Positions 19,294-37,272 of a stretch of DNA of 64,000 nucleotides are shown here, one piece after another. This DNA comes from Methylophilaceae bacterium 11 (GTDB lineage Bacteria; Pseudomonadota; Gammaproteobacteria; Burkholderiales; Methylophilaceae): positions 372,001-436,000 of the forward strand of contig JCKJ01000001.1 in the NCBI GenBank assembly GCA_000525025.1, written 5' to 3'. How positions within the stretch are numbered: position 1 is the first letter of the stretch; the number at the start of each line of letters is the position of its first letter. Under the pieces are notes generated by a model. The model did not search any database. It was not told where the DNA came from and was given only the letters and a program-made list of their open reading frames with translations. A program made the position numbers and the translations under genes.

Positions 19294-19788
19294 ATGTCTT
19301 TGCAAACTTGGGAATTGTTAAGTTACATTGTGACGGTGTTTGGTTTGCCGTTGGCAATCCTCTCATTTATGCTAGAGCAGCGTAAAGAACGTGAGAACGA
19401 AGAAGAAGAGGTGTATCAGTTATTGTCGGATGCCTATACCGATTTTCTTAAGCTGGTGATGGCGAATCCAGACCTTAAATTGCGCTCACAATCCAGTATT
19501 GAGCAGCTAACAGAAGAGCAACTGGAGCGTATGTACGTGATGTTTGAAATTTTGATTTCATTATTTGAACGTGCCTATTTACTTGCTTACGAGCCCAATA
19601 TGGCGGGCAAGCAATTGCGGCGTTGGTATTCATGGGATGACTATATGCGCGAGTGGTGCGAGCGCGATGATTTTCGGGAGTGGTTGCCAAGGCTGTTGCA
19701 AGGTGAAGACCCCGATTTTGCCAAGTACATCACAAAAATCGCGAAAGAAAAAGGCCGGGTTGGTACGCCGACCTTGATTGAGGTTTAA
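19294..19788 (+). CDS. Small membrane protein of unknown function
   Basis: The 164-residue product has one N-terminal membrane helix (about residues 8-25, IVTVFGLPLAILSFML), then a highly charged, Glu-rich helical region (QRKERENEEEE) and a Trp/Arg-rich C-terminal half (RRWYSWDDYMREWCERDDF). I do not recognise a characterised family. A GAGGAG ribosome-binding site supports the start. It overlaps the convergent nasA stop by 4 nt and may be co-transcribed with radC. Confidence 0.7.
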   Translation: MSLQTWELLSYIVTVFGLPLAILSFMLEQRKERENEEEEVYQLLSDAYTDFLKLVMANPDLKLRSQSSIEQLTEEQLERMYVMFEILISLFERAYLLAYEPNMAGKQLRRWYSWDDYMREWCERDDFREWLPRLLQGEDPDFAKYITKIAKEKGRVGTPTLIEV

Positions 19789-22529
19789 CCTACCTTAAGT
19801 GTGCTATGTGCTTTCACTAAACGTTTGAGTTCTGGCACACAAGAGCCACAGTTGGTGCCGCATTGCAACTTGGCTTGTAGCGTTTGCAAGTCTGCCCCAG
19901 CTTCACAGGTGTCGATAATTTCATTCTCTGACACATCAAAGCAGTTACACACAATTTTGCCACGGCTTTTTTGACCGCTAGGTGGCGCACTTAATGGCGC
20001 AAGTGCCCAACGTCTGAGTTCATCGGTAAATTGGCCTTGTTGCATCACTTGTTTCAGCCAGTCTGCTGCCAATGTTTCACCAATCAGTTTCACGCCAGTC
20101 ACTTGGCCTGATTCTACCAAGATGCGTTTATGGATACCGCGTTTGGCATCGTCATAATTTAGCATGGGTGCGTCTTCCACCATGCCAAGCATTTGGTCCA
20201 AACGTTGAATAATCGCGGCATCAGGCGCAGTATGATGCGATGCACGCAATACGACCATGCCGTGGTCACGACCATACAATCCGCAGGTGGCGTAATCAAA
20301 CTCTTTAAGTAGGGGGCGAATGTTTTCAACCAAACTTAGATTACTGCAAGTGCGCATGACCGTCATTTGCCAAGGCAGATCCAGCTTTTCAATCTTAATG
20401 GCCGTATGTTTTAGCTCAGGCTGCTTAGAGGTCTTATCAAATGCTGGCGGCATCAAGGCATTGACACCCAAGCCACTCATCGTTTGGCTTCCCCAGTGCA
20501 TAGGGATAAAGGTTTCCGCCGGTTTGACTTCTTCGGATTGCTGCACACGAATATTCAGGCTGCCGCGTTTATTACTCAGTTTCACAATGTCGCCGGACTT
20601 GAGCTGCCGGCGCGTCATGTCATCCTGATTCATAGACACAACCGGCTCTTCCACATGATTATAAAGTTGCGCAATGGTGCCGGTGCGGCTCATGCCATGC
20701 CACTGGTCACGTAAGCGTCCAGTCAGTAGGTGCAGCGGATGGCGCGCGTCGGTTTTATCGGCAGTACCTTTATATACTGCGTTGTGGAACTGCGCTTTGC
20801 CGTTAGGTTTTTGGAATACGCCATCGGTATACAGGCGTGCCTCACCAGTCGTTGCACCTTCTTTAAATGGCCATTGTTGCGGACCTTGTTGTTCCAGCAA
20901 CTGGTAGCTGAGTCCGGTAATGTCTAAATCGCGTCCGCGTGTTGTTTCACGGTGCTCGTTGAACACACTTTCCGTGGTGGGATAATCAAATAATGATTTA
21001 CCCGTGATAGATTTTGATACAAGTTTTTTCTCTAAACGTTGTGCAAAGTCCACCGCGATTTCCCAATCGTGGCGCGCTTCACCCGGCTTGGGCGATGCAC
21101 TTTGCAAGCGTGTGATTCTGCGTTCCGAGTTAGTCACGGTGCCTTCTTTTTCACCCCATGTCGTGGCTGGAAAGAACACATCGGCGTATTGGTTGCTGTC
21201 GGTGTTGTTAAAGGCATCTTGCAGGACGACGAGTTCGGCAGTATTCAGCGCTTCTAGTACATTATTCAGGTCTGGCATCGAGTGTGCTGGGTTGGTGCAG
21301 GCAATCCATACCGCTTTGATTTCACCTTTTTTAATGGCATCAAACATTTCAACCGCAGTTTTTCCGGGCTGGGCGGGCACATCATCAATGTCCCATAATT
21401 TCGCCACTTCTGCGCGGTGCTCGGCATTGGCTAAGTCACGGTGGCCAGAGAGTAAGTTGGCCATGCCGCCGACTTCACGGCCACCCATGGCATTGGGTTG
21501 TCCGGTGAGCGAGAATGGGCCAGCGCCCGGTTTGCCAATTTGGCCGGTGGCCAAGTGTAGGTTGATGAGTGCCGCATTTTTATCCGTGCCGTGCACCGAT
21601 TGATTGAGCCCCATGCAATACATGGAGAGCGTAGGACCAGCACCAAACCATTTAGCCGCTTGAATAATATCCTGCTCACTGATGCCGCAAATATCAGCCA
21701 CCATTTTAGGGGTGTATTCGCGTACGGTTTCTTTTAAAGCGTCAAAACCTTCGGTGTGGTTGCGGATATACTGCATATCCAACAGCCCTTCCCAGAGCAT
21801 CACGTGTAATAGACCATTGAATAGTGCAACATCGGTGCCCGGTAAAATGGCCAAATGTAAATCAGCAAACTGTGCCGTATCGGTGCGGCGTGGATCGACC
21901 ACTACAACTTTCATGTCAGGATTTTTAGCTTTGGCATCTTCGATGCGGCGGAAAATAATCGGGTGTGCAAAAGCGGTATTCGACCCTGCAATAAACAAAC
22001 ACCCGGTATGATCGATATCTTCATAGCAGGCGGGTGGGGAGTCTGCACCCAATGTGGCTTTGTAACCAGTCACGGCGGAGCTCATGCATAGGCGTGAATT
22101 GGTGTCGACGTTATTGGTGCCAATCAAGCCTTTAGCCAGCTTGTTGAACACATAGTAGTCTTCGGTTAGCAATTGGCCCGAAATATAAAAGGCCACGGAG
22201 TCCGGACCATGTTGTGCAATGGTGTCGGCGAATTTATCCACCACATAATCCAGAGACGCATCCCAAGTACTACGCTGACGCTCGGCACCGCGCTCGGTAC
22301 GCAATTCCGGATAGAGGCCGCGTGCATCCAATTTGGCCGTGAGGTGCAGGGTTGAACCCTTGGTGCATAGGCGTCCGAAATTGGCAGGGTGGTCGGGGTC
22401 ACCTTTCACATCAATAATACGTTGATGCTCTGTTTTAATAATCACGCCACAACCCACGCCACAATAGCAACAGGTAGCCTTGGTCTCTTTGACCGCAGGA
22501 TTGATAGGGGATTGCACTTGATTTGCCAT
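19785..22529 (-). CDS. nasA: Assimilatory nitrate reductase catalytic subunit
   Basis: NasA is a cytoplasmic molybdopterin enzyme reducing nitrate to nitrite for nitrogen assimilation. The 914-residue product has the N-terminal [4Fe-4S] site CCYCGVGC with a fourth Cys in GRLCTKG, the Mo-bis-MGD domains (SRLCMSSAV, VVVDPRRTDTAQFAD, GRLRDQWHGMSRTG), and a C-terminal BFD-like [2Fe-2S] domain (VCNCFDVS, CGTNCGSC). That fusion is typical of proteobacterial NasA. There is no signal peptide. It is the last gene of the nirB-MFS-kinase-nirD-nasA row. Confidence 0.95.
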   Translation of the reverse strand: MANQVQSPINPAVKETKATCCYCGVGCGVIIKTEHQRIIDVKGDPDHPANFGRLCTKGSTLHLTAKLDARGLYPELRTERGAERQRSTWDASLDYVVDKFADTIAQHGPDSVAFYISGQLLTEDYYVFNKLAKGLIGTNNVDTNSRLCMSSAVTGYKATLGADSPPACYEDIDHTGCLFIAGSNTAFAHPIIFRRIEDAKAKNPDMKVVVVDPRRTDTAQFADLHLAILPGTDVALFNGLLHVMLWEGLLDMQYIRNHTEGFDALKETVREYTPKMVADICGISEQDIIQAAKWFGAGPTLSMYCMGLNQSVHGTDKNAALINLHLATGQIGKPGAGPFSLTGQPNAMGGREVGGMANLLSGHRDLANAEHRAEVAKLWDIDDVPAQPGKTAVEMFDAIKKGEIKAVWIACTNPAHSMPDLNNVLEALNTAELVVLQDAFNNTDSNQYADVFFPATTWGEKEGTVTNSERRITRLQSASPKPGEARHDWEIAVDFAQRLEKKLVSKSITGKSLFDYPTTESVFNEHRETTRGRDLDITGLSYQLLEQQGPQQWPFKEGATTGEARLYTDGVFQKPNGKAQFHNAVYKGTADKTDARHPLHLLTGRLRDQWHGMSRTGTIAQLYNHVEEPVVSMNQDDMTRRQLKSGDIVKLSNKRGSLNIRVQQSEEVKPAETFIPMHWGSQTMSGLGVNALMPPAFDKTSKQPELKHTAIKIEKLDLPWQMTVMRTCSNLSLVENIRPLLKEFDYATCGLYGRDHGMVVLRASHHTAPDAAIIQRLDQMLGMVEDAPMLNYDDAKRGIHKRILVESGQVTGVKLIGETLAADWLKQVMQQGQFTDELRRWALAPLSAPPSGQKSRGKIVCNCFDVSENEIIDTCEAGADLQTLQAKLQCGTNCGSCVPELKRLVKAHSTLKVG

Positions 22530-22901: not shown

Positions 22902-24590
22902 TTAAGAGACTATTAGTAAATAAATAAATAAAAAATTAAGGATCAGAGAGAAAATCGCCAGCCACTGCCATTTGAGTAATCGGGCTCTTGCAATCAGTGG
23001 TGTGCGTTGCAATGCAATGGGTTTGAGCTCGCCGTATTCCAGCGCATGTAACATCTCGTCTGCTGTTTCAAAGCGTTTATCACTATCTCGTGCAACAGCT
23101 TTAAGAATGATATTTTCTAGCCATGCCGGAATATCCGGACGGTAGCGTGTGGGGCGAATCGGCTCGCCAAAACGTGGCGCTTGAAAAGGCTCGATCTCGC
23201 CATAAGGATATTTTCTGGTCAGCAAGTAATACAGCGTGACGCCTGCCGCATAAATATCGGTAGTGATGTCTGCAGACTTACCTTCAAATAATTCCGGTGC
23301 CATAAAGCTTGGCGTGCCAGGGTTACTCATGGTTTCCGGTGTGCCGATGGTGGTATTGAGTGCTACCCCTAAATCTAAAATGCGCAAACGCTGGTCTGAG
23401 CCAATATGAATGTTGGCTGGTTTGATGTCGCGATGAATAATATTTAAGCGGTGCAACATGCTGATGCCTCGCATCAGGTCTTCAGCGGTCTTGGCTACGC
23501 CATTGACCGTAAAGTGATGTCCATGTTCAATGCGCTGCTGCAAGGTCGCACCTTCGTGCCAGGTCATCACATAATACAAATGCTTGCGCTGTTCTGCCGT
23601 TAACGGCAGCACTTGAGGCACGCATTGCGAAACCACGCGTTTAGCCAGCCATTCTTCATTCAATAGTGCTTGGCAACTGTCTTTATCATTGGCCATGATG
23701 GGCTGCAGTGTTTTTAATACAAACAATTGCTTGCTCTGGTTTCTGACTTTGTACAGTACGGTAGCGCGTGAGTCATGCAAGATATCCTGCACTTCAAAGC
23801 CATCCAGTGCATCGCCCACTTTTAGCTTGGGTGGCACGGCTAAGTTTTGTGCATCCGAGAGTAAATCATTCAGGTTATCGGTGCCAATCTCATCGATGCG
23901 CACAATGATTGCCGTTGCATTGTCTTGCCCACCTTTTTCCAACGCCGTTTTGGTGAGGTGGTCACTGATCATTTGCGGGCTGTCGTATAGCATCATGGCA
24001 TGATGGATCGCTTTCTCACCTAATGGCTCCCATACGCCATCACTCATCATGGCAAAGGTGTCGCCTACTTCTAATAGGCCTTCGGAAAAATCTACATTAA
24101 GCGTGCTATCTAACCCTACTGCGCGCTTGAGCACGTGGCGCATGTCGGGTCTGTCCCATACATGATCGGTCGTGAGTTGTGTGAGCGTTTTGTTGCGCAA
24201 CCGATAAATACGTGTATCCCCCACATGCGCCAGAATATAACGCTGCCCTTTCAATACAAGTAGCGATAATGTTGTCGCCATGCCAGACATATCGCGATTA
24301 GCTGCGGCCTGTGCCAGCACCCAACGGTTGGCGGCACTCAACACTTTTTCTAACGAGATATGGATTTGCCAAGTATCAGGGGTTGCATAGTAATCGGCAG
24401 AGACTGTACGCACTGTCATTTCAGCGGCCTCGCGCCCACCCGCGTTGCCACTGACACCATCAGCCACCGCAATGAGCGCACCTTTGGTGGCGAGCACCGC
24501 GTGGTTTGGCGTGACCACACCCGCGTAATCTTCATTACGTGTGCGTGGCCCTACTAGGCTACTTTCGCCAACGCTAAATTTCAGTGACAT
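22902..24590 (-). CDS. PP2C phosphatase / Ser-Thr protein kinase fusion, membrane-anchored
   Basis: The 562-residue protein joins an N-terminal PP2C domain (TRNEDYAGV, VADGVSGNAGGREAA, LAHVGDTRIYRL, MSDGVWEPLG, GGQDNATAI) to a Hanks-type kinase (VLK lysine, HRDIKPANIHI catalytic loop, DLG instead of DFG, APELFEG, DIYAAGVTLYYLL). It ends in a membrane helix (about residues 540-560). The glycine-rich loop is poor (ILHDSRATVLYKV), so kinase activity needs testing. It lies between the MFS nitrate carrier and nirD on the same strand, which suggests post-translational control of nitrate uptake or reduction. No target is known. Confidence 0.92.
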   Translation of the reverse strand: MSLKFSVGESSLVGPRTRNEDYAGVVTPNHAVLATKGALIAVADGVSGNAGGREAAEMTVRTVSADYYATPDTWQIHISLEKVLSAANRWVLAQAAANRDMSGMATTLSLLVLKGQRYILAHVGDTRIYRLRNKTLTQLTTDHVWDRPDMRHVLKRAVGLDSTLNVDFSEGLLEVGDTFAMMSDGVWEPLGEKAIHHAMMLYDSPQMISDHLTKTALEKGGQDNATAIIVRIDEIGTDNLNDLLSDAQNLAVPPKLKVGDALDGFEVQDILHDSRATVLYKVRNQSKQLFVLKTLQPIMANDKDSCQALLNEEWLAKRVVSQCVPQVLPLTAEQRKHLYYVMTWHEGATLQQRIEHGHHFTVNGVAKTAEDLMRGISMLHRLNIIHRDIKPANIHIGSDQRLRILDLGVALNTTIGTPETMSNPGTPSFMAPELFEGKSADITTDIYAAGVTLYYLLTRKYPYGEIEPFQAPRFGEPIRPTRYRPDIPAWLENIILKAVARDSDKRFETADEMLHALEYGELKPIALQRTPLIARARLLKWQWLAIFSLILNFLFIYLLIVS

Positions 24591-24617: not shown

Positions 24618-25829
24618 CTATACCTTAGCGGTGGTAGCCGTTGCAGCACCCCAGGTAGTTCTCCAGCGTGTTTTCACACCCATTAATCCCACCATGGCTA
24701 AGATGGCCAATCCGGCAAATATCAATAAGCCAATTTGATAGCTGCCGGTCACTTGTTTAGAGTAGCCCAAGCTGGAAGCAAGATAGAAACCACCAATGCC
24801 GCCCGCCATACCAACCAACCCAGTCATGACGCCAATCTCTCTGCGGAAGCGTTGCGGCACCAATTGGAACACTGCACCGTTGCCCATGCCGAGTGCTGCC
24901 ATAGCCAGAATCACAACCGTTAAGCCTAAGGCTTGAGTTGGAATACCAAAACTTAAGATAAATAAGAACAAGGCCGCCAAGATGTACATGATGGTGAGTG
25001 AACGAATGCCACCGATACGGTCTGCCAATAAGCCACCAAATGGGCGTACCAATGAACCAGCAAACACGCATGCGGCCGTAAAGTAACCAGCATGGACTGG
25101 CGGTAGACCATATTGGTCATTGAAATAAATAGTCAATGAAGAAGCCAAGCCAACAAAACCGCCAAAGGTCACGCTATAAAAGAACATGAACCACCAAGCG
25201 TCTTTGTCTTTTAATACAGCAAGATATTGCCCTAAAGATTTGGCTGCGGGTGCGTCCGGTGCGTCTTTGGCAAAAATCACATACACCAACAAGGCAATGC
25301 TGAGTGGGATGAGCGCTAAACCAAACACGTTGTTCCAGCCGAATGCAATCGCTAAGCCTGGCGCAAATAACGCGGCTAACGCTGTACCAGAGTTGCCTGC
25401 ACCCGCAATGCCTAATGCCGTGCCTTGATGCTCTGGCGGGTACCAGCGTGAGGCCAATGGCAGTGCCACGGCAAACGCTGCACCGGCAAAGCCCAAGAAC
25501 ATGCCTAATAACAAGGTATGTTGATAAGTATGCACACCATGCAGCCAAGCCACCAGCAGTGCGGCAATCACAATAAACTGGCCCACTAAACCCGCTTTTT
25601 TAGGCTTGATTTGATCAACCAACACGCCCATAAAAATACGCAGCAAAGCGCCTGTCAGCACTGGTGTGGCGACCATTAACCCTTTTTGTGCTGGCGTTAG
25701 ATTCAGGTCTGCCGCGATTTGCACGGCGAGTGGGCCTAACATGACCCACACCATAAAGCTTAAATCAAAGTAGAAAAAGGCAGAAAATAAAGTGGGCTTA
25801 TGGCCGACTTCCCAAAAACTTTTTTGCAT
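24618..25829 (-). CDS. narK: Nitrate/nitrite MFS transporter (NarK/NasA-type)
   Basis: The 403-residue protein is a 12-helix major-facilitator carrier of the nitrate-nitrite porter family. Family features include the N-terminal FDLSFMVWVMLGPLAV, the arginine-bearing helices around LLRIFMGVLVD, and the two glycine-rich signatures GIAGAGNSGTALAAL and GLVGMAGGIGGFYL. I chose the ATG at 25829 because AGGAG lies 6 nt upstream; the ATG at 25835 abuts it. In an assimilation cluster it probably imports nitrate or nitrite. Confidence 0.92.
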   Translation of the reverse strand: MQKSFWEVGHKPTLFSAFFYFDLSFMVWVMLGPLAVQIAADLNLTPAQKGLMVATPVLTGALLRIFMGVLVDQIKPKKAGLVGQFIVIAALLVAWLHGVHTYQHTLLLGMFLGFAGAAFAVALPLASRWYPPEHQGTALGIAGAGNSGTALAALFAPGLAIAFGWNNVFGLALIPLSIALLVYVIFAKDAPDAPAAKSLGQYLAVLKDKDAWWFMFFYSVTFGGFVGLASSLTIYFNDQYGLPPVHAGYFTAACVFAGSLVRPFGGLLADRIGGIRSLTIMYILAALFLFILSFGIPTQALGLTVVILAMAALGMGNGAVFQLVPQRFRREIGVMTGLVGMAGGIGGFYLASSLGYSKQVTGSYQIGLLIFAGLAILAMVGLMGVKTRWRTTWGAATATTAKV

Positions 25830-25841
25830 GATCATCTCCTT

Positions 25842-25938: not shown

Positions 25939-28365
25939 CTACACTGTAATAGTGTCGAACTCTTTATGCTCAGCACGTTTTTTCACGCGATCCGCCCAAG
26001 GGTCTACAGAACCTTGTAAGGCGTACAGCAAGCGCTCATAAGCGGCGGTACGGCCTTCGGCATCTTCTAGAATACGTTTCTTCACGTAATCCAGACCTAC
26101 ACGTTCAATCCAGTGCACGGTACGGTCAAGGTAACGCGCTTCTTCGCGGTAAATTTGGATAAACGCACCAGAGTACTCAATCACTTCTTCTGCCGTTTTC
26201 ACTTTGCAGAGGAACTGGGCGACTTCAGTTTTGATACCGCCGTTACCACCGACATAAATCTCCCAGCCAGAATCGACGCCAATGATGCCGACATCTTTAA
26301 TGCCAGATTCCGCGCAGTTACGTGGGCAGCCAGACACCGCAAACTTCACTTTATGCGGCGCCCACATGTGGTCAAACGCTTTTTCAATATCAATGCCGAG
26401 TTGCGTAGAGTTTTGTGTACCAAAACGGCAGAACTCAGAACCCACACAGGTTTTAACAGTACGGATCGATTTGCCGTAAGCGTAGCCAGAAGGCATATCT
26501 AAATCTGCCCACATGCTGGTGAGGTCTTCTTTTTTCACACCGAGCAAGTCAATACGCTGACCGCCAGTGACTTTCACCATTGGCACATTGTATTTGTCGG
26601 CCACATCGGCAATTTTGCGCAATTGATCAGAGGATGTAACGCCGCCATACATACGTGGAATCACAGAGTAGGTACCATCTTTCTGGATATTTGCGTGCAC
26701 GCGTTCGTTAATAAAGCGTGATTGCGGATCATCTTTGGCTTCGTGTGGCCAGCTGGAAATTAGGTAGTAATTCAATGCAGGGCGGCAAGTTGCACAACCG
26801 TTAGGTGTGCCCCAGCTCATGCCTTTCATCGCATCTGGAATATTCAGGTATTTGTTTTTGCGAATTTCTTCACGGACGACCTCGTGGCTCTTATCGGTAC
26901 AACCGCAAATCGATTTGCTGCTAGAAGGCGGTGCATAACCACCCCCTAAAGTAGAGGCTAAAATTTGCTCGACCAAGCCTGTGCAAGAGCCGCAGCTTGA
27001 ACCCGCTTTGGTTTGTTTTTTAACGTCGTCAATGGTGAACAAGCCTTTTTCTTGAATGGCTTTGACGATCGTGCCTTTGCATACACCATTACAGCCACAG
27101 ACTTCCATTTCGTCTGTCATAGCGGCTGCTTTATCTTGACCTTGGTGCCCGGTATTGCCCAGACTATCTTGCCCGAACATGAGGTGATCACGTATCTCAT
27201 GAATCGGTTTGCTATCACGCAACATCTGGAAATACCAAGCCCCATCCGTCGTATCGCCATAGAGCACGCTGCCGATGATTTTGTCATCTTTAATCACGAG
27301 TTTTTTGTACACCCCGCCTACTGCATCGTGCAACACAATTTCTTCGGTATCTTCACCGCCAGAGAAATCTCCGGCAGAAAACAAATCAATGCCTGTGACT
27401 TTTAATTTTGTTGAAGTCACGGAGCCTTTGTATAACCCAATACCAAAGTTGGCCAAGTGTGTGGCGCACACCTTAGCCATTTCAAATAACGGCGCGACCA
27501 ACCCGTAAGAGGTGCCGCGATGTGAAACGCATTCGCCCACTGCATACACGCGCGGGTCGTAAGTTTGCATGGTGTCGTTGACTACAATGCCACGGTTACA
27601 ATGGATGCCAGCCGATTCCGCTAAAGCGTAATTCGGGCGAATCCCTACCGCCATGACGACTAAATCGGCGGGGACTTCTTGGCCGTCTTTAAATTTGACT
27701 GCCGTCACGCGGCCATCTTTACCAATCAGTGATTCGGTATCTTTTTTCAGTAAAAAGTGCAGGCCTTTAGACTCTAGTGATTTTTGCAGCATCACGCCTG
27801 CAGTTTTGTCTAGCTGGCGTTCAAGTAACCACTCGTTTTTATGGACGACAGTGACATCCATGCCCTGGATTTTCAACCCATTGGCCGCTTCTAAACCAAG
27901 CAAGCCGCCACCAATTACCACTGCATGTTTATATTGTTTAGCAGTTTCAATCATGTCGTTAGTATCTTTAATGTCGCGATACCCCAGCACGCCTTGTAAA
28001 TCGGCACCGGGAATTGGCAACATAAACGGCTTGGAACCTGTGGCCAACAACAAACGGTCGTATTCTGCACTGGTGCCATCTTCCGCATACACCACGCGAT
28101 TTTTACGATCAATCTTGTTGATGCGTGCGTTGGTGTAGAGCGTGATATTGTTTTCTGCGTACCATTCGCGTGTATTTAAAATGATGTCATCAATCGTTTG
28201 CTCGTTTGCAAGCACCGGCGACAGCATAATGCGGTTGTAATTGGGATAAGGTTCATCGCCAAACACTGTAATGTGATAGATATCCGGCGCTATTTTGAGT
28301 AGCTCCTCTACCACGCGCATACCTGCCATCCCGTTCCCGACCACCACTAAATTCATTTTTTTCAT
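25939..28365 (-). CDS. nirB: NADH-dependent nitrite reductase large subunit NirB
   Basis: NirB reduces nitrite to ammonium with NADH using FAD, iron-sulfur clusters and siroheme. The 808-residue product has the FAD/NAD(P) domains (VVVGNGMAGMRVVEELL, VVIGGGLLGLEAA), a BFD-like [2Fe-2S] domain (CGCNGVCKGT, SCGSCTGL), and the C-terminal siroheme/[4Fe-4S] region (CVGSEFCRFG and SGCPRNCAESG supplying four cysteines). An AGGTAGGTG stretch precedes the ATG. It heads the second nitrate transcription unit, with a sigma54-like promoter and an upstream inverted repeat. Confidence 0.96.
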   Translation of the reverse strand: MKKMNLVVVGNGMAGMRVVEELLKIAPDIYHITVFGDEPYPNYNRIMLSPVLANEQTIDDIILNTREWYAENNITLYTNARINKIDRKNRVVYAEDGTSAEYDRLLLATGSKPFMLPIPGADLQGVLGYRDIKDTNDMIETAKQYKHAVVIGGGLLGLEAANGLKIQGMDVTVVHKNEWLLERQLDKTAGVMLQKSLESKGLHFLLKKDTESLIGKDGRVTAVKFKDGQEVPADLVVMAVGIRPNYALAESAGIHCNRGIVVNDTMQTYDPRVYAVGECVSHRGTSYGLVAPLFEMAKVCATHLANFGIGLYKGSVTSTKLKVTGIDLFSAGDFSGGEDTEEIVLHDAVGGVYKKLVIKDDKIIGSVLYGDTTDGAWYFQMLRDSKPIHEIRDHLMFGQDSLGNTGHQGQDKAAAMTDEMEVCGCNGVCKGTIVKAIQEKGLFTIDDVKKQTKAGSSCGSCTGLVEQILASTLGGGYAPPSSSKSICGCTDKSHEVVREEIRKNKYLNIPDAMKGMSWGTPNGCATCRPALNYYLISSWPHEAKDDPQSRFINERVHANIQKDGTYSVIPRMYGGVTSSDQLRKIADVADKYNVPMVKVTGGQRIDLLGVKKEDLTSMWADLDMPSGYAYGKSIRTVKTCVGSEFCRFGTQNSTQLGIDIEKAFDHMWAPHKVKFAVSGCPRNCAESGIKDVGIIGVDSGWEIYVGGNGGIKTEVAQFLCKVKTAEEVIEYSGAFIQIYREEARYLDRTVHWIERVGLDYVKKRILEDAEGRTAAYERLLYALQGSVDPWADRVKKRAEHKEFDTITV

Positions 28366-28573: not shown

Positions 28574-30097
28574 TTAAAATGTGTACATGGCAGTGAGCCA
28601 TAGTTTTTCTGTATCTCTCACACGGCCGCGGTTTCCAGCCACGTTGTTTGCAACATTGGGCGTTGCTGCATAGTGGTCATCTTCTGTAAATTTGCCGTAC
28701 TCTAGTTTAGTCATGATGTTCTTATTCACGTTATATGTGACTGCTGCATTCCACTCTTTACCGTATTGGTTGCCATTTCTGCTTGCACCACCGCCGACCG
28801 TATTAAAATCTTCATCAGAGTTAATGACGTGATAGTCGGCAAAAAATAAGAAATCGTCGTAACGATAAGTCGCGGTCACAAACGTATCTTTAATCCCGGA
28901 TCTTGGCGTGGCTAAGAACTTATCGACCCAACCTTGGAACAAGTGATTCGTGCCATAAGGGGTTTGGAAAGCGTACAAATTGTCATTGCTGGATAGTAGC
29001 TCTTGGTCGATACGCATATTGAAGTTATCCCAACCTAAGCCGCCGCCCAGTTTGTAGTAGTGCGCATCAATGCGTTTGTCGCCGCCGGAATAATCCGTTT
29101 GTTTAGCGTATTCAGCCGTGTAATGTGCTCTAAAGTTAGGGTTGAACGGATGCGTGCCATCCAAACGTACACCAAAGGTTTTGTTGGATTGGTCAGCCGT
29201 TAAATTTGCTCTGCCGTTATTATTCAAGGTACCTGCGCCAAACCATGCATTACCAAAGCCCAATTCATCCATGTTAGATAAGTAGCCATAACCCACTAAG
29301 AATTCGGTAGGTGAAATGCGGTAGCGGATATTCGCAATATCTATATCGCCACCACGCTGCACTGTAGTAATTTGTGTGACCTCTTCAAAGTGCGCTAAAA
29401 ATACTTCGGTGTCTGTAATGGTTTTGTTGAAGACTGAAATACCATCAAACACTTGCATGACTTGGCGGAAAGCAATATCGCCAATAAAGCGTACGTTGTC
29501 TAAGTTAACAGCTTGGCGACCTAAGCGGACACGCGTGTTCTTTACACCGGTCCAGTCAATATAGGCTTGGTTGATGTCGGTAAAATCAGGGTCGACGATT
29601 TTTGCGTATTCAATTTTGCTGTTTTGATTGGTGGCACCATTGATGCGGAAGCCGTTAGTGCCATCATTAAAACTATCGTCAAGTTTGGAAACATTAATAA
29701 ACTGCACGGCAAAGCTAAAGTTTTGGTACGGTGCAGTTTGCCAGCCCACTAAGCTACGCAATGTAATGCCATCTGCATCTTTGAGCTCTCGATTAGCAGT
29801 TGGGTTGGCTGTGTTAGCTGCATTCGTATAGTTGGTAGGTTGTAAGCCATCTTGCTCTACGTGTTCATAGCGCAATCTGAAGCTGGTCATATTTTTGCCA
29901 GTTTTAATCGCATCCATAAAAGTGTATTCAGGAAGCGCTTCTTCTTCGGCCATTGCATTGAATGATAGCGAGGCAAATCCCAATAACACTGCAAATGCAA
30001 CTGGACTTAACTTTAACGCTTGGCTTGATAAGACTTGGCTTGATAAGACTTGGCTTGATAAGACTTGACTTGGCTTACACTTGCTATTACTTTTCAT
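28574..30097 (-). CDS. Outer-membrane porin of the alginate-export type, nitrate cluster
   Basis: The 507-residue protein has a signal peptide with an unusually long N-region, a cleavage site near FNAMA-EEE, and a beta-barrel ending in an aromatic residue (LWLTAMYTF). Alternating strand patterns such as RLRYEHVEQDG and ARIRLGRQ-like NTRVRLGRQAVNLDNVRFIG match the alginate_exp porin family often found beside nitrate genes. A role in nitrate passage across the outer membrane is inferred from position between nrtC and nirB. The N-region contains three perfect 15-bp repeats encoding VLSSQ. GGAGTAACAG before the ATG supports this start. Confidence 0.85.
   Translation of the reverse strand: MKSNSKCKPSQVLSSQVLSSQVLSSQALKLSPVAFAVLLGFASLSFNAMAEEEALPEYTFMDAIKTGKNMTSFRLRYEHVEQDGLQPTNYTNAANTANPTANRELKDADGITLRSLVGWQTAPYQNFSFAVQFINVSKLDDSFNDGTNGFRINGATNQNSKIEYAKIVDPDFTDINQAYIDWTGVKNTRVRLGRQAVNLDNVRFIGDIAFRQVMQVFDGISVFNKTITDTEVFLAHFEEVTQITTVQRGGDIDIANIRYRISPTEFLVGYGYLSNMDELGFGNAWFGAGTLNNNGRANLTADQSNKTFGVRLDGTHPFNPNFRAHYTAEYAKQTDYSGGDKRIDAHYYKLGGGLGWDNFNMRIDQELLSSNDNLYAFQTPYGTNHLFQGWVDKFLATPRSGIKDTFVTATYRYDDFLFFADYHVINSDEDFNTVGGGASRNGNQYGKEWNAAVTYNVNKNIMTKLEYGKFTEDDHYAATPNVANNVAGNRGRVRDTEKLWLTAMYTF
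30020..30064. repeat. Three perfect 15-bp tandem repeats in the porin signal peptide
   Basis: Unit TTGGCTTGATAAGAC occurs at 30020-30034, 30035-30049 and 30050-30064 with no mismatch, followed by a partial unit. On the coding strand it adds VLSSQ blocks before the hydrophobic core. Identity of the copies suggests recent or ongoing slippage, which stays in frame. Confidence 0.9.
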
Positions 30098-30172: not shown

Positions 30173-31009
30173 TTATGCTGCTTTTTTCGCGTGGCGCTCG
30201 TATAAAAACTTCAGGACTTCGCTGCGTAAATGGTTGTAGTGCGGATCTTCAGCTAAATCCAAACGCTTTCTTGGGCGTTCTAAATCTACTGTTAATATTT
30301 CACCTATCGTCGCAGCCGGGCCATTCGTCATCATGACGATTTTATCGGAGAGCAACACAGCTTCATCCACATCGTGTGTGACCATGACTGCGGTACAACC
30401 GGATTTCGCCATGATTTTCATCAACTCGTCTTGCAAGCCAGCACGTGTCAACGCATCCAATGCCCCAAACGGCTCATCAAGTAATAACACTTTGGGTTCC
30501 ATCGCCAATGCTCTGGCAATACCTACGCGTTGTTTCATGCCGCCGGAAATTTCGTTCGGACGTTTTTCCGTTGCATGGGTGAGGCCTACCAGCTCCAATG
30601 CAGCTTTGGTGCGTACTTGCAATTGTGCTTTGCTTTCAGTATTACCAAATACGCGGTCCACCGCTAAATAGACATTCTCAAAGCAAGTCAGCCAAGGCAG
30701 TAACGAGTGATTTTGAAACACCACAGCGCGCTCAGGCCCCGGTTTTGCAATTTCTCGTCCAGCGCAAAATAAGTGCCCAGCCGTTGGGGTAAGTAAGCCG
30801 GCGATCAAATTCAATACCGTGGATTTACCACAGCCGGAGTGGCCGATAATCGAGACAAATTCGCCTTCTTTGATATTGAGGTTAATGCCTTTGAGTGCAT
30901 CAAACGTGCCTTTTTTGGTGACAAAGGTCATGTCTATATTCTCTAGTTGCACATAACGCTCTTGCAATGGTCTTTCTTGCACCGGTCTCTCTTGTAATAG
31001 TGTTTCCAT
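30173..31009 (-). CDS. nrtC: Nitrate ABC transporter ATP-binding protein
   Basis: The 278-residue ATPase energises nitrate import. It has Walker A GHSGCGKST, the Q-loop, the signature ISGGMKQRVGIARALAMEP, Walker B VLLLDEPFGALD and the switch His in VMVTHDVDEAV. It is the short form without the extra NrtA-like C-terminal domain of cyanobacterial NrtC, so NrtD/NtrD is an equally good name. The N-terminus is extended by QERP repeats (30953-30997); GGGAGAACAAT before the ATG supports this start. It is downstream of nrtB. Confidence 0.94.
   Translation of the reverse strand: METLLQERPVQERPLQERYVQLENIDMTFVTKKGTFDALKGINLNIKEGEFVSIIGHSGCGKSTVLNLIAGLLTPTAGHLFCAGREIAKPGPERAVVFQNHSLLPWLTCFENVYLAVDRVFGNTESKAQLQVRTKAALELVGLTHATEKRPNEISGGMKQRVGIARALAMEPKVLLLDEPFGALDALTRAGLQDELMKIMAKSGCTAVMVTHDVDEAVLLSDKIVMMTNGPAATIGEILTVDLERPRKRLDLAEDPHYNHLRSEVLKFLYERHAKKAA
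30953..30997 (-). repeat. Degenerate 15-nt tandem repeats at the nrtC 5' end
   Basis: Three successive 15-nt units encode LQERP, VQERP and LQERY, with third-position and first-codon differences between copies. They form a non-conserved N-terminal extension before the ABC domain begins at about YVQLENIDM. Confidence 0.75.
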
Positions 31010-31033: not shown

Positions 31034-32008
31034 TTATTCGTAACTAAAACGTTTAGCTAGCAATGTCAGGCCTTGCTCGAGCAATAAGCCCACCACACCC
31101 ACAATCACAATGGCAATGATGATGTGTTCCACATTCAGATTGTTCCATTCATCCCACACCCAGAAGCCAATGCCCACGCCACCGGTCAGCATTTCTGCTG
31201 CCACAATCACCAGCCATGCCACGCCGATAGAGAGGCGCACACCAGTCATCATGTAAGGCAGTACGTACGGGAACAAGATTTTGGTCACGACTTTCCACTC
31301 AGATAAATTCAGCACTTTGGCCACATTCATATAATCTTGCGGCACTTTGCTCACGCCCACAGCGGTGTTGATAATCATCGGCCAAATAGCGGAGATGAAA
31401 ATCACCCAAATCGCTGCTGGGTTGGCGGCTTTGAATACCAGCAAACCAATCGGCAGCCAGGCTAAAGGTGACACCGGTTTAAGTAGACTGATAATTGGCG
31501 CAGTCATGCGTGACATAAACTCATAACGGCCAATAATAAAGCCCATCGGAATGCCCACTAACGCAGCCAATCCAAAGCCGGTCGCTACACGCTGCAGTGA
31601 ATTCAGGATGTTCCAACCAATGCCCACGTCATTCGGGTTGTTGATGTAGAACGGATCGCTGAACAAGATGGTCGCTGCTTTAAAGGTAGAAATAGGACCA
31701 GGTACGCCTTGCGATTGGTGGGAGATAAGTGTCCATACGACAATCATCAGTGATAAGCCAATCATGGGTGGAATGGCCCAGGCAAAAAACTGGCGCGCTA
31801 ATTTAACCAACTTGCTGTCACTGCGGGGTGCAACTACCGCGGGTGTTTGCAGCATGTTGTCAGCATTTGCGGCTGGCATGGCCACCTTGTCGGAAGCTTG
31901 TACATCCATGGTGTTATCCTTGCTTTCTGCTAAGGGTATAGGGGTATCGCCGGAGGTATGCGCACCTCCTTTAAGGGGGGCGATATTCTTGATAGTCAAT
32001 GTGCTCAT
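31034..32008 (-). CDS. nrtB: Nitrate ABC transporter permease
   Basis: The 324-residue permease belongs to the nitrate/sulfonate/taurine type. After a poorly conserved hydrophilic N-terminus of about 70 residues come the membrane helices and the EAA-type loop (VSKVPQDYMNVAKVLNLSEW, KILFPYVLPYMMTGVRLSIG). It lies 23 nt after nrtA and before nrtC, the normal nrtABC order. Confidence 0.94.
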   Translation of the reverse strand: MSTLTIKNIAPLKGGAHTSGDTPIPLAESKDNTMDVQASDKVAMPAANADNMLQTPAVVAPRSDSKLVKLARQFFAWAIPPMIGLSLMIVVWTLISHQSQGVPGPISTFKAATILFSDPFYINNPNDVGIGWNILNSLQRVATGFGLAALVGIPMGFIIGRYEFMSRMTAPIISLLKPVSPLAWLPIGLLVFKAANPAAIWVIFISAIWPMIINTAVGVSKVPQDYMNVAKVLNLSEWKVVTKILFPYVLPYMMTGVRLSIGVAWLVIVAAEMLTGGVGIGFWVWDEWNNLNVEHIIIAIVIVGVVGLLLEQGLTLLAKRFSYE

Positions 32009-32031: not shown

Positions 32032-33345
32032 TTACACTTTGACTTTGAAGCCGTTAGCGTAGGCAGCAGGATTGGTGCCGTCCCACACTACGCCGTCCAT
32101 TAATTTGCTAGCACGCATTGGGCTGCTTGGTACGCTTACACCAAGTGATTTTGCAGCTTCGGTGTAGATATCAATGCGGTTCACTTTTTTGGCCACGGCT
32201 AAATAATCTGGATCTGACTTGAGCAAACCCCAACGTTTATGTTGGGTGAGGAACCACATACCGTCTGATAAGTACGGGAACGTCACTTTGCCGTCGTTAA
32301 AGAACTTCATGTAATTCGGGTCTTCCCATTTTTTGCCAATGCCGTTGTCGTAGTGGCCAACAAAGCGGCCGGCAATTACTTCTTCCGGTGCATTTACATA
32401 GGCTTTGCCGGAAATGAGTTTGGCGACTGCAGCACGGTTAGCGGTGGCATCAATGTAGCGGCAAGCTTCCAAAATCGCTTTGGTCATGGCCAACGCAGTT
32501 TTTGGGTTTTGCTCAACAAACTCAGCAGTACAGCCTAATACTTTCTCAGGATGGTCCACCCAGATATCTTGTGTGGTAGCAACGGTAAAGCCGACTTTGT
32601 CGTAAATTGCACGTGCGTTCCAAGGCTCGCCCACACAGTAGCCATCCATATTGCCGATACGCATGTTGGCGACCATTTGCGGTGGAGGCACGACAATGGT
32701 TTTCACGTCTTTCATTGGGTTAATGCCGTACGAGGCTAACCAGTAGTACAACCACATGGCATGGGTGCCGGTAGGGAAAGTTTGCGCAAAGGTAAAGTCA
32801 CGGTTTTCGTTGTCGATCAAACGTTTCAGTGTTGCACCGCTGGTCACGCCTTTGTCTTTTAATTGACTGGCCAAGGTGATGCCTTGACCGTTATTGTTCA
32901 ATGTCATCAGCACATTCACGTCTTTTTGCTTGCCGCCAATGCCCATTTGCACGCCATACATCAAGCCGTACAGCACGTGTGCTGCATGCAACTCACCGTT
33001 GACTACTTTGTCGCGAATACCTGCCCATGACGCTTCTTTGGAAGGTAGAATTTTGATGCCGTATTTTTTATCAAAGCCCATTTCAGCAGCAACCACAATC
33101 GGTGCGCAATCTGTCAGTGGAATAAAACCGATTTTGACTTCTTTTAATTCTGGCTCATCGCTACCTGCTGCCCATGCATTGGTGCTGACTGAAGGTGGAA
33201 CAATATTCATCATCGCGGCCGCTCCTAGTGTCCCTGCTACAGCATGTTTAAAAAAGTTACGGCGGCTAGCATTGATGCCGGATTCAGCCGTATTGGTTGG
33301 CAAGGGGTCACTCAACGGTGTGTTATCCAACTCTGAATTACGCAT
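32032..33345 (-). CDS. nrtA: Nitrate ABC transporter substrate-binding protein (Tat-exported)
   Basis: NrtA captures nitrate in the periplasm for NrtBC. I use the ATG at 33345 (437 residues), which has GGAG 7 nt upstream; the 33378 start lacks one. The N-terminus has a twin-arginine signal (SRRNFFKHAV then a hydrophobic stretch, cleavage near NAWA). The body matches the NrtA/CmpA fold: VKIGFIPLTDCAPIVVAAEM, GNMDGYCVGEPWNARAI, WVDHPEKVLGCTAEFV. It follows the ANTAR leader and terminator, so its transcription should depend on NasT. Confidence 0.95.
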   Translation of the reverse strand: MRNSELDNTPLSDPLPTNTAESGINASRRNFFKHAVAGTLGAAAMMNIVPPSVSTNAWAAGSDEPELKEVKIGFIPLTDCAPIVVAAEMGFDKKYGIKILPSKEASWAGIRDKVVNGELHAAHVLYGLMYGVQMGIGGKQKDVNVLMTLNNNGQGITLASQLKDKGVTSGATLKRLIDNENRDFTFAQTFPTGTHAMWLYYWLASYGINPMKDVKTIVVPPPQMVANMRIGNMDGYCVGEPWNARAIYDKVGFTVATTQDIWVDHPEKVLGCTAEFVEQNPKTALAMTKAILEACRYIDATANRAAVAKLISGKAYVNAPEEVIAGRFVGHYDNGIGKKWEDPNYMKFFNDGKVTFPYLSDGMWFLTQHKRWGLLKSDPDYLAVAKKVNRIDIYTEAAKSLGVSVPSSPMRASKLMDGVVWDGTNPAAYANGFKVKV

Positions 33346-33379
33346 TAAAACTCCTTCATTCACATAAAAAATAAACAAT

Positions 33380-33428
33380 AAAAAAGGCGTCTACCGGGCA
33401 AGATAAATCTTGCTGGTAAGACGCCTTT
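33380..33428 (-). terminator. Intrinsic terminator in the nrtA leader
   Basis: On the minus strand AAAGGCGTCT-type arms (33419-33428 with 33383-33392) form a 10-bp outer stem, followed by three pairs, a bulge and a 6-bp inner stem GCAAGA/TCTTGC, then T6ATTG. It is 35 nt upstream of the nrtA ATG and would stop transcription unless antitermination occurs. Confidence 0.9.
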
Positions 33429-33444
33429 GTCTTTAATTTACTGC

Positions 33445-33506
33445 AACAGAACTACCGACTTTGGTACTCTGTTTTAACTAGCAACGTTCCGCCGTTGGAG
33501 GTTGCT
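33445..33506 (-). ncRNA. ANTAR-responsive leader RNA (tandem hexaloop hairpins) for nrtA
   Basis: On the minus strand the first hairpin (33506-33480) has stem AGCAAC/GTTGCT, an internal loop, UCC/GGA and the six-base loop AACGGC. The second (33473-33445) has AACAGA/TCTGTT, UACC/GGUA and loop AAAGUC. Both loops have A at position 1 and G at position 4, the recognition pattern of ANTAR proteins. They are 6 nt apart and followed by the intrinsic terminator at 33380-33428. The arrangement matches the nas leaders bound by NasR and NasT, whose ANTAR domain is encoded just upstream. Confidence 0.9.
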
Positions 33507-33544
33507 ATGGGTTGTCTCTTGTACTTGCTGTTAGTGTGTACTGA

Positions 33545-34123
33545 CTACACAATCAACATTTTTGCTGCTTCAATCAACTGGTTAGATAAATCCGCCAGCT
33601 TCATATTTCGTTTCATCGCCATCTCACGCAACATCGCGTAAGCATCTTCTTCATCCAAATTACGTTGACGCATCAAAATGCCTTTTGCCCGCTCTACCAA
33701 TTTGCGCTCTTCAAGCTTCAAATTGGCGACACTCAACTCTTCTTTAAGCTGCTTTGTTTCTTCAAACCTGGCAACTGCTGCATCAATCACTGGCGTTAAC
33801 CTTTCACTCGGAATCGTTCCTACTACGTAAGCACATACACCTGCTTGCGTTGCGGCTTTAATCTTTTGTTTGTCACCATCATGCGTAAACATGACCACCG
33901 GTCTGGGGTTATGTTGCGACAACACACAGATGTTTTCTAGTGTATCTCGGTTGGGCGACTCGGTATCGATAATGACAATATCGGGTGACATTTCACAACA
34001 CACATCATGTAGGTTTACTCCATCCTCCACATGTGCAATCACATCAAACCCATTTTCTATCAATGATTGCTTCAATGGTTTGCTACGCGATAAATCATTG
34101 TCCACAATCAATACCTTTAACAT
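33545..34123 (-). CDS. nasT: Nitrate antiterminator NasT (receiver-ANTAR protein)
   Basis: NasT promotes read-through of a leader terminator in nitrate assimilation operons by binding RNA through its ANTAR domain. The 192-residue product has a receiver-like N-terminal domain (MLKVLIVDNDL, PDIVIIDTESPNRDTLENI, RPVVMFTH) and a C-terminal ANTAR domain (LEERKLVERAKGILMRQRNL, EDAYAMLREMAM). In other bacteria NasS holds NasT inactive without nitrate; no NasS gene is visible here. A sigma54-like promoter ends just before the ATG. The gene is 38 nt upstream of the first ANTAR hairpin, so it may share the nrt transcript. Confidence 0.95.
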   Translation of the reverse strand: MLKVLIVDNDLSRSKPLKQSLIENGFDVIAHVEDGVNLHDVCCEMSPDIVIIDTESPNRDTLENICVLSQHNPRPVVMFTHDGDKQKIKAATQAGVCAYVVGTIPSERLTPVIDAAVARFEETKQLKEELSVANLKLEERKLVERAKGILMRQRNLDEEDAYAMLREMAMKRNMKLADLSNQLIEAAKMLIV

Positions 34124-34134
34124 GGTTGAGCTTT

Positions 34135-34150
34135 AGCAAAGGTTGTGCCA
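34135..34150 (-). promoter_or_regulatory. Candidate sigma54 (-24/-12) promoter of nasT
   Basis: On the minus strand TGGCAC-AACCT-TTGCT matches the sigma54 consensus TGGCAC-N5-TTGCW completely. The -12 cytosine is 34136, which predicts transcription starting at about 34124, one base before the nasT ATG; the mRNA would be nearly leaderless. Confidence 0.7.
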
Positions 34151-34238
34151 ATAAATTAAGTATTTTTAACTGTTTGATTTTAAATGACTTGTTTAATAAT
34201 GTTAAGGGGCGTTATTCAGTTTTATGAAATTCATTCCT

Positions 34239-34253
34239 GCACAATCGCGGTGC
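34239..34253. promoter_or_regulatory. Candidate NtrC binding site upstream of nasT
   Basis: GCAC-N7-GTGC (34239-34253) has the half-sites and spacing of the NtrC consensus (for example GCACTAAAATGGTGC at E. coli glnA). Its centre, 34246, is 110 bp upstream of the -12 cytosine, a normal enhancer distance. The 34124-34451 region between nasT and cstA otherwise holds only a doubtful 76-codon minus-strand frame (34202-34432), which this site overlaps. Confidence 0.6.
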
Positions 34254-36695: not shown

Positions 36696-36949
36696 CGGAA
36701 GCGGACGTGGCACGTGTGATTGAAATGGCTTGGGAAGATCGCACGCCATTTGAAGCAATTCAATATCAGTTTGGTTTGAATCAGGATGGTGTGATCAGGC
36801 TCATGCGTGCTCGATTAAAACTTAGTTCGTTTAAACTTTGGCGCAAACGCACACATGGTCAGAGAACAAAGCATGGTCAGCTGAGGTCATCAATGGTCGT
36901 TAGGCATCAATCAAAAGAGCACAATAAAGCAAACCGATTAGCTAATTAG
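36686..36949 (+). CDS. TIGR03643/DUF2805 family protein
   Basis: The 87-residue product matches the uncharacterised TIGR03643 (DUF2805) family: TEADVARVIEMAWEDRTPFE, IQYQFGLNQDGVIRLMR, and LKLSSFKLWRKRTHGQRTKH. The pattern looks like a helix-turn-helix, but no function is known. The start is TTG (36686 or 36689), overlapping the DUF466 gene by 10 nt. The last 25 residues are poorly conserved. Confidence 0.8.
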   Translation: MLLTEADVARVIEMAWEDRTPFEAIQYQFGLNQDGVIRLMRARLKLSSFKLWRKRTHGQRTKHGQLRSSMVVRHQSKEHNKANRLAN

Positions 36950-37143
36950 TTGTTTTGGTGCAAACGGTCAATTTGCATATATTCACCAGTGGCGTTTTTG
37001 TCAGTCTCAAAGTCGTTCTCAATCGGATCGTCTTTCACTGAGCGTCTCTTTTTGGTGGTTGCATGGTATTCCGCAATAATATAGTTAACTTGATCGTCGT
37101 GATCGGTTAATTTTTGAAACGTATTCATAAGCCAGTTAATCAT
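36946..37143 (-). CDS. Hypothetical small hydrophilic protein
   Basis: A possible 65-residue protein starting MINWLMNTFQKLTDHDDQ, or five residues later at MNTFQ. It is charged throughout, with no membrane segment or motif I recognise, and no clear ribosome-binding site. It ends in a 4-nt convergent overlap with the DUF2805 gene. It may be a strain-specific small gene or a chance frame. Confidence 0.35.
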   Translation of the reverse strand: MINWLMNTFQKLTDHDDQVNYIIAEYHATTKKRRSVKDDPIENDFETDKNATGEYMQIDRLHQNN

Positions 37144-37272
37144 TTTGCGTCACACATCACTAGGTTGTAGATGATTTGAGATGTGCAACTTGTGTGCCAA
37201 TCAGCGCAACAAAATTTTACTTTATAGCTTGTTGATTTTTATGGATTTTTTGTAGCTTTGTTTTTGTTTGAA

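Follow-up and report, generated by a model that had tools for sequence, protein, structure and literature searches.

The region between nasT and nrtA in Methylophilaceae bacterium 11 very probably carries a NasT-dependent antitermination leader of the ANTAR type that presents three hexaloops and is self-coupled, in that NasT would be made from the very transcript that it gates. We analysed a stretch of 64,000 nucleotides of this genome (the window), in which the leader lies on the - strand between the end of nasT and the ATG of nrtA at 33345. The mechanism itself is the known ANTAR antitermination; what appears new is the third loop, the self-coupled wiring and the missing sensor. The case is built from sequence: three hairpins, their conservation and covariation, an overlap with the terminator, the positions of sigma54 sites, the gene order, a gap without recognisable promoter and a NasS that was not found. 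An earlier note on this DNA had read the region as an intact two-hairpin ANTAR leader. The antitermination leader stands, the number of hairpins does not, and nitrate control cannot simply be assumed since NasS was not found.

Features of the nasT-nrtA region and of the genes behind it (window coordinates)
Feature	Position	Strand	Evidence
Possible NtrC site	34238..34253	+	some 90 bp upstream of the promoter; weak pattern match
Sigma54 -24/-12 promoter, TTGGCACAACCTTTGC	34136..34151	-	exact pattern match; 12 nt before nasT ATG
nasT, 192 aa, receiver-ANTAR	33545..34123	-	Pfam Response_reg 48.5 bits, ANTAR 67 bits
H1, first hexaloop hairpin	33479..33507	-	loop AACGGC 33491-33496; -10.3 kcal/mol, z -3.1
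H2, middle hexaloop hairpin	33445..33473	-	loop AAAGUC 33457-33462; -10.3 kcal/mol, z -4.65
H3, third hexaloop hairpin, AAGAC[AAAGGC]GUCUU	33418..33433	-	A1/G4 hexaloop scan; -3.2 kcal/mol
Intrinsic terminator with T6	33380..33428	-	-25.9 kcal/mol, z -6.9; T6 at 33380-33385
nrtA, nitrate-binding protein	32032..33345	-	NMT1_2 355 bits
nrtB, nitrate ABC transporter permease	31034..32008	-	TIGR01183 above cut-off
nrtC/D, nitrate ABC transporter ATPase	30173..31009	-	TIGR01184 above cut-off
Porin-like outer membrane protein	28574..30097	-	Alginate_exp 34.8 bits
nirB, nitrite reductase	25939..28365	-	TIGR02374 965 bits
MFS transporter, probably nitrate/nitrite	24618..25835	-	MFS_1 150 bits; substrate inferred from context
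PP2C phosphatase - protein kinase fusion	22902..24590	-	PP2C_2 and Pkinase
Assimilatory nitrate reductase (nasA type)	19785..22529	-	Molybdopterin, Molydop_binding, Fe4S4, Fer2_BFD; nasA by context

Both loops described in the earlier note, AACGGC and AAAGUC with A at position 1 and G at position 4, are present, as is its 10-bp GC-rich terminator with T6. The gene just upstream, which it had said to encode an ANTAR protein, codes for a receiver-ANTAR protein by Pfam. A scan for A1/G4 hexaloops that required paired stems gave a third leader hairpin, H3, that had been overlooked; all three hairpins have the A1/G4 hexaloop and C:G closing pair that mark ANTAR targets. When 33413-33510 was folded alone, exactly H1, H2 and H3 were obtained (-26.7 kcal/mol, z -3.3). 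When the downstream bases were added, the terminator replaced H3 (-25.9 against -3.2 kcal/mol). The 5' arm of the terminator and H3 have 11 nt in common (33418-33428), and the last hairpin and the intrinsic terminator thus exclude each other, as they do in ANTAR targets. It had been stated that the second hairpin and the terminator share no sequence; this holds for H2 but not for the leader, whose third hairpin overlaps the terminator. Because of this overlap the geometry is the usual ANTAR one, and H3 is the predicted antiterminator (P2) hairpin. The terminator stem, 10 bp at its GC-rich base and 19 pairs when extended with bulges, precedes the T6 tract. The simple terminator rule of the promoter-scan tool returned no terminator in 33340-33700, the stem being bulged.

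We then asked how far these elements are kept in relatives. A search for close relatives of NasT yielded 32 loci, 27 of which have nasT followed by a leader and give, with the window, a set of 28 leaders. The five loci not used were L007, where nasR and not a leader follows nasT, L032, which runs into a contig end, and L033-L035, whose response regulators are unrelated. Every one of the 28 leaders shows three A1/G4 hexaloops with a C:G or U:G closing pair; one loop each in L005 and L017 was assigned by hand. At least two C:G-closed A1/G4 hexaloop hairpins (stem of at least 3) lie 5' of H3 in 26 of them, as compared with 0.06% of dinucleotide shuffles; the remaining two have one loop closed by U:G. 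A MAFFT alignment was made of 25 leaders (23 of the 28 plus L085 and L089; L009, L012, L015, L019 and L030 were omitted for long spacing or near-duplication). In this alignment all three loops coincide, and RNAalifold, unprompted, returned the three hairpins H1-H3 with 14 pairs. Standard pairs fill 96.9% of the cells, against 22-52% when the alignment was slid, and 7 of the 14 pairs show compensatory changes, namely 3 of 4 pairs in H1 and 4 of 5 in H2. H3 is the most conserved element of the leader and too conserved for covariation. The covariation score exceeds all 500 shuffles; two of five measures were weaker, double-change pairs being matched by 15/500 shuffles and pair types by 112/500.

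In the relatives, A1, G4 and closure by C:G or U:G are retained in H1 and H2, and variation is seen in the stems and at loop positions 3, 5 and 6. This invariance is partly by construction, the loops having been chosen by the A1/G4 rule, and the independent support comes from the shuffle null, the MAFFT alignment and RNAalifold. In 35 of 38 leaders the 3' strand of H3 pairs with terminator sequence downstream; the other three are L018 and L023, where an earlier U-run was picked, and L019, with 3 of 5 bases paired. When an exact 8-mer was required, the count was 28 of the 38. A strong terminator sitting right behind nasT could in principle be no more than the plain intrinsic terminator of that gene, accompanied by chance hairpins and free of any regulation. 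The conserved hexaloops, the covariation and the overlap of H3 with the terminator make this extremely improbable; moreover, absent read-through, nrtA would be left without a recognisable promoter.

The spacing of the hairpins indicates how they may be paired. The linkers in the window measure 5 nt (H1-H2), 11 nt (H2-H3) and 45 nt (H1-H3), so that the first two lie within the 5-12 nt of the eut leaders, where, according to the cited passages, linkers of 3 or 14 nt drastically lowered induction (PMC3369931). Among the 28 leaders the linker falls within 3-15 nt for H2-H3 in 20, for H1-H2 in 15 and for H1-H3 in none; the H2-H3 linker has a median of 13 nt and exceeds 15 nt in 8. From these lengths and the eut spacing we take H2-H3 to be the canonical ANTAR pair, with H2 in the P1 position, and H1 to be an additional upstream loop. 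The linker rule is not absolute, since in the P11-type and NasR-type leaders discussed below the first loop lies farther off with ordinary hairpins in between. ANTAR targets are described as dual (PMC3369931, PMC7496416, PMC8934654 and PMC8164766, in the passages available); here three hairpins are conserved, and we regard the leader as a variant in which H1 is added to a dual motif of H2 and H3, not as a standard member of the class.

Known systems resemble the window in part. The Klebsiella nasF leader, the target of NasR, likewise has A1/G4 hexaloops with C:G closing before a nitrate assimilation operon, and its second hairpin overlaps the terminator as H3 does here (PMC7496416, PMC3369931, cited passages); SELEX with NasR gave the same loop rule with the terminal C:G pair (same passages of PMC7496416). 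NasR, a NIT-ANTAR protein, combines sensor and antiterminator in one molecule and uses two hexaloops, whereas the window has three loops and a receiver-ANTAR protein without known sensor. In Enterococcus eut, excerpts describe a receiver-ANTAR protein, EutV, and an antiterminator hairpin that shares terminator bases (PMC3369931, PMC8934654). That system differs in its dual motif, its kinase EutW and its signal, ethanolamine, and the NasT of the window lacks the conserved receiver lysine. The NasS-NasT systems of Paracoccus, Pseudomonas and Azotobacter also combine NasT with a leader that precedes nitrate assimilation genes, and in Paracoccus nasTS is located directly upstream of the nasA leader (PMC5424462, PMC3795266, in the parts cited). 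In contrast to these, no NasS was found for the window, no promoter was found from nasT to the leader, and there are three hexaloops.

At gathering thresholds Rfam gave no match in the window. Below them, P11 (RF00625) scored 23.5 bits against a threshold of 70 and narK RNA (RF03032) 19 bits against 43.2, so that the leader belongs to neither family; seven other weak matches were taken as chance. Both families share with the window an AACGGC/AACG-type loop and GACAAAGNCGUC, and P11-type leaders end in the same overlap of H3 and terminator. In Pseudomonas, the P11 RNA is the leader of nirB, named nalA. Three-hairpin ANTAR targets and NasT in Methylophilaceae went unreported among the literature matches listed (mostly non-subscription), which is weak evidence of absence; the published wording "three hairpins" concerns another gene, and for the narK RNA motif the matches listed were unrelated.

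Eighty Methylophilaceae genomes gave 68 ANTAR matches, of which the best 47 were taken for a census of the family. Thirty-two are short receiver-ANTAR proteins (one of them, L093, a second locus of genome G374) and 15 are long; five of the long ones were checked and are NIT plus ANTAR, that is, of NasR type, and the others were assigned by length. L070 is a truncated locus, L053 runs into a contig end, and L084 and L087 have no H3 within 420 nt. This census of 30 NasT-type genomes overlaps in part with the set of 28 leaders. By the strict rule, at least two upstream hexaloops are present in 20/30 NasT-type and 2/13 NasR-type loci (Fisher p 0.003, uncorrected for kinship), a contrast that is suggestive only, the genomes being kin. 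The NasR loci span 3 genera, and the NasT genera vary. Ten of the 30 NasT-type genomes have one strict upstream loop only, and the third loop is thus not indispensable. Among NasR-type loci one upstream hexaloop is found in 10/13 and none in L068.

These counts bear on the possibility that the leader is a canonical two-hairpin one, in which only two hairpins, H2 with H3 or else H1 with H3, serve NasT and the other hexaloop is a non-binding spacer. The dual ANTAR targets of the literature passages cited above speak for it, as do the loci with a single strict upstream loop and the P11-type leaders of one other genus (L036, L101-L129): of the best 30 of 51 of these, 24 have a middle hairpin with a G:C-closed A1/G4 hexaloop and 6 have a tetraloop there, and this hairpin may be a third contact or only a spacer. 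A mere spacer, however, would have no need of the A1, G4 and closing pair that both H1 and H2 keep while their stems vary, and the excess of NasT-type loci with two strict upstream hexaloops points the same way. We consider a two-hairpin leader rather unlikely and retain the three-hexaloop reading.

Under strict filters, the three-loop model matched two genomes among 274 of the wider class: that of the window and another with a two-hexaloop leader. The complete genome to which the window belongs encodes one ANTAR protein, and the leader model gives one match below E 0.4. The next matches (E 0.42 and 7.8) were rejected as second targets, since each carries, on the strand that matched, a single A1/G4 hexaloop instead of three. 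The genome is of the NasT type. In the six others sampled from its genus, the leader is preceded by a gene for a long, NasR-length ANTAR protein (the NIT domain was checked in four of the six). In a Methylophilus MAG (G416; L007/L068), nasT and nasR stand in a row with a leader only after nasR. These differences look like regulator replacement.

The position of the promoter separates the two types. A sigma54 site precedes nasT in all 28 loci of one set (L004-L031) and in 30 of 31 census loci, the window's own genome included, the sole miss being a locus that a contig end interrupts. As background, 36 such sites were counted in 560,744 strand-bases, the 28 included. No sigma54 site occurs from nasT to H3 in any of the 31 short census loci with H3 or of the 38 aligned leaders, two sets that overlap. 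At NasR-type loci the site lies between nasR and the leader in 13/13 long loci with a leader. P11-type leaders, too, have a sigma54 site 84-95 nt before H3 (30/30, best of 51 matches), where the window has only nasT-leader sequence. The scan of 33340-33700 gave no sigma70-type promoter between nasT and nrtA, which agrees with the earlier statement that no clear promoter lies between nasT and the first hairpin; nor did it give a strong dedicated promoter inside 33346-33379, which the earlier note had named as evidence against its reading. The gap before the first hairpin had been put at 38 nt; it exists, and measures 37 nt in our fold. With a sigma54 site before nasT and none from nasT to the leader, the earlier proposal that NasT acts on its own transcript and gates nrtABC and the porin gene appears sound. 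The Methylophilaceae locus is thus, as far as its sequence can be read, organised in two wirings, NasT type and NasR type. At loci of the NasT type, transcription from the promoter would pass through the regulator gene before reaching the gate, and NasT would be made from the transcript that it gates, as far as promoters are readable.

We propose the following mechanism. A sigma54 promoter, probably driven by NtrC and hence active at ammonium shortage, would start one transcript with nasT first and the leader next; NtrC control is suggested by the family. The candidate NtrC site is a weak match: the pattern has a match in 23/100 shuffles too and is present in only 7/28 relatives. Without active NasT the strong terminator would form and transcription would end before nrtA. 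Active NasT, by analogy with other ANTAR proteins, would bind the hexaloops as they emerge and stabilise H3. As H3 uses bases of the terminator 5' arm, polymerase would then read into nrtABC, the porin gene, nirB, the MFS transporter gene and nasA, the presumed extent of the transcript. H1 may recruit NasT earlier or in greater number. From the sequence, nrtA has a ribosome-binding site, AAGGAG, and its product a twin-arginine signal, SRRNFFK. The gene for the phosphatase-kinase fusion sits within this nitrate assimilation gene row. In one relative (L066, in the 76% complete genome G429) a NasT-type leader is found, by eye, directly before a porin-like gene.

We turn next to what would make NasT active. 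The closest solved relative of NasT is EutV (6wsh/6ww6, E 3.2e-27), and NasT has the receiver and ANTAR domains of the NasT of NasS-NasT systems. NasS, the cytoplasmic NrtA-like sensor of those systems, was not found in the window's genome (one contig, 99.99% complete), where NrtA is the only NMT1_2 protein above cut-off and the next match scores 12.4 bits. Good NasT-type genomes, with a listed completeness of 90% or more and contamination of 5% or less, number 23; two of them (G374 and G427) have a second NMT1_2 match scoring over 250 bits, and one, G374, has a NasS-like gene. A second copy is also carried by G380, which is 76% complete. The second copies in G427 and G430 were ruled out as NasS, having twin-arginine-like signals and a transporter permease behind them (by eye). 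The second protein of G374 has no signal sequence and is encoded behind a second nasT and an H3-type hairpin; by eye, a cobA-looking gene comes next in this row. It is possible that NasS is here placed behind an antitermination leader. As a control, 13 genomes of the P11-type genus were examined. In nine, an NMT1_2 match of 317-328 bits neighbours an ANTAR match, and these pairs are presumed by position to be NasS-NasT; three show ANTAR matches in long frames only, and none occurs in the last (71% complete). Nitrate control can therefore not simply be assumed. Receivers as a rule carry a conserved lysine. In NasT the acceptor Asp is present in 30 of 30 aligned sequences and a glycine occupies the usual lysine position in 31 of 31, which makes ordinary phosphorylation control doubtful.

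The lack of a recognisable NasS raises the possibility that NasT is constitutively active and that the leader gates by dose or delay. The nrt-nas genes would be read only once the sigma54 transcript that they share with nasT has supplied enough NasT, and the input would be nitrogen status, not nitrate. The rarity of NasS-like genes and the place of nasT inside the sigma54 transcript fit this, and in P. denitrificans loss of nasS leads to constitutive nas expression without nitrate (PMC3795266, cited passage). Against it, the receiver has retained its invariant acceptor Asp, suggesting some input, and an unrecognised partner could supply it. We regard a dose gate as a real contender, if a little short of an even bet. 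The twin-arginine NrtA precursor, folding in the cytoplasm before export, could alternatively be a nitrate-responsive substitute for NasS, which resembles NrtA (PMC3795266, in part). In its favour, no other NMT1_2 protein of the genome exceeds the cut-off, NrtA has an RRxFF signal, and its gene comes first behind the gate. The signal does not discriminate, however, since NrtA proteins of NasR-type loci have it too, and G429 has nasT, leader and porin-like gene in a row with zero NMT1_2 matches. A role for the precursor is therefore quite improbable.

A fuller version of the three-hexaloop reading has H1, H2 and H3 all bound, as a relay along the nascent RNA or by three NasT dimers, without NasS and with the switch set by NasT's own production from the gated transcript or by an unrecognised partner. 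In the cited passages EutV holds one loop per dimer, successive binding has been proposed, and the question is raised why ANTAR targets need two loops when a dimer seemingly holds one at a time (PMC8934654); Paracoccus NasT ran at about six subunits (PMC3795266, likewise in part). Three loops would fit either a relay or binding by three dimers. We hold this three-site version, taken as a whole, to be unlikely. Related leaders with two or three loops, under NasR or NasT and with the promoter on either side of the regulator gene, amount to a natural experiment on loop number, and a NasT seemingly without known nitrate sensor makes it testable what else controls NasT.

Two observations concern the sigma54 sites themselves. 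In the window the nasT start codon stands 12 nt after the GC of the -12 element (34123-34151, - strand), at which spacing the nasT message would have little or no leader. The distance from site to nasT is bimodal among relatives, 11-14 nt in 12 of 28 loci and 33-35 nt in 15, with 48 nt in one. A second exact sigma54 consensus, TTGGCACACAAGTTGC, is located at 37185-37200 on the - strand, about 40 bp before a 65-aa ORF (36946-37143).
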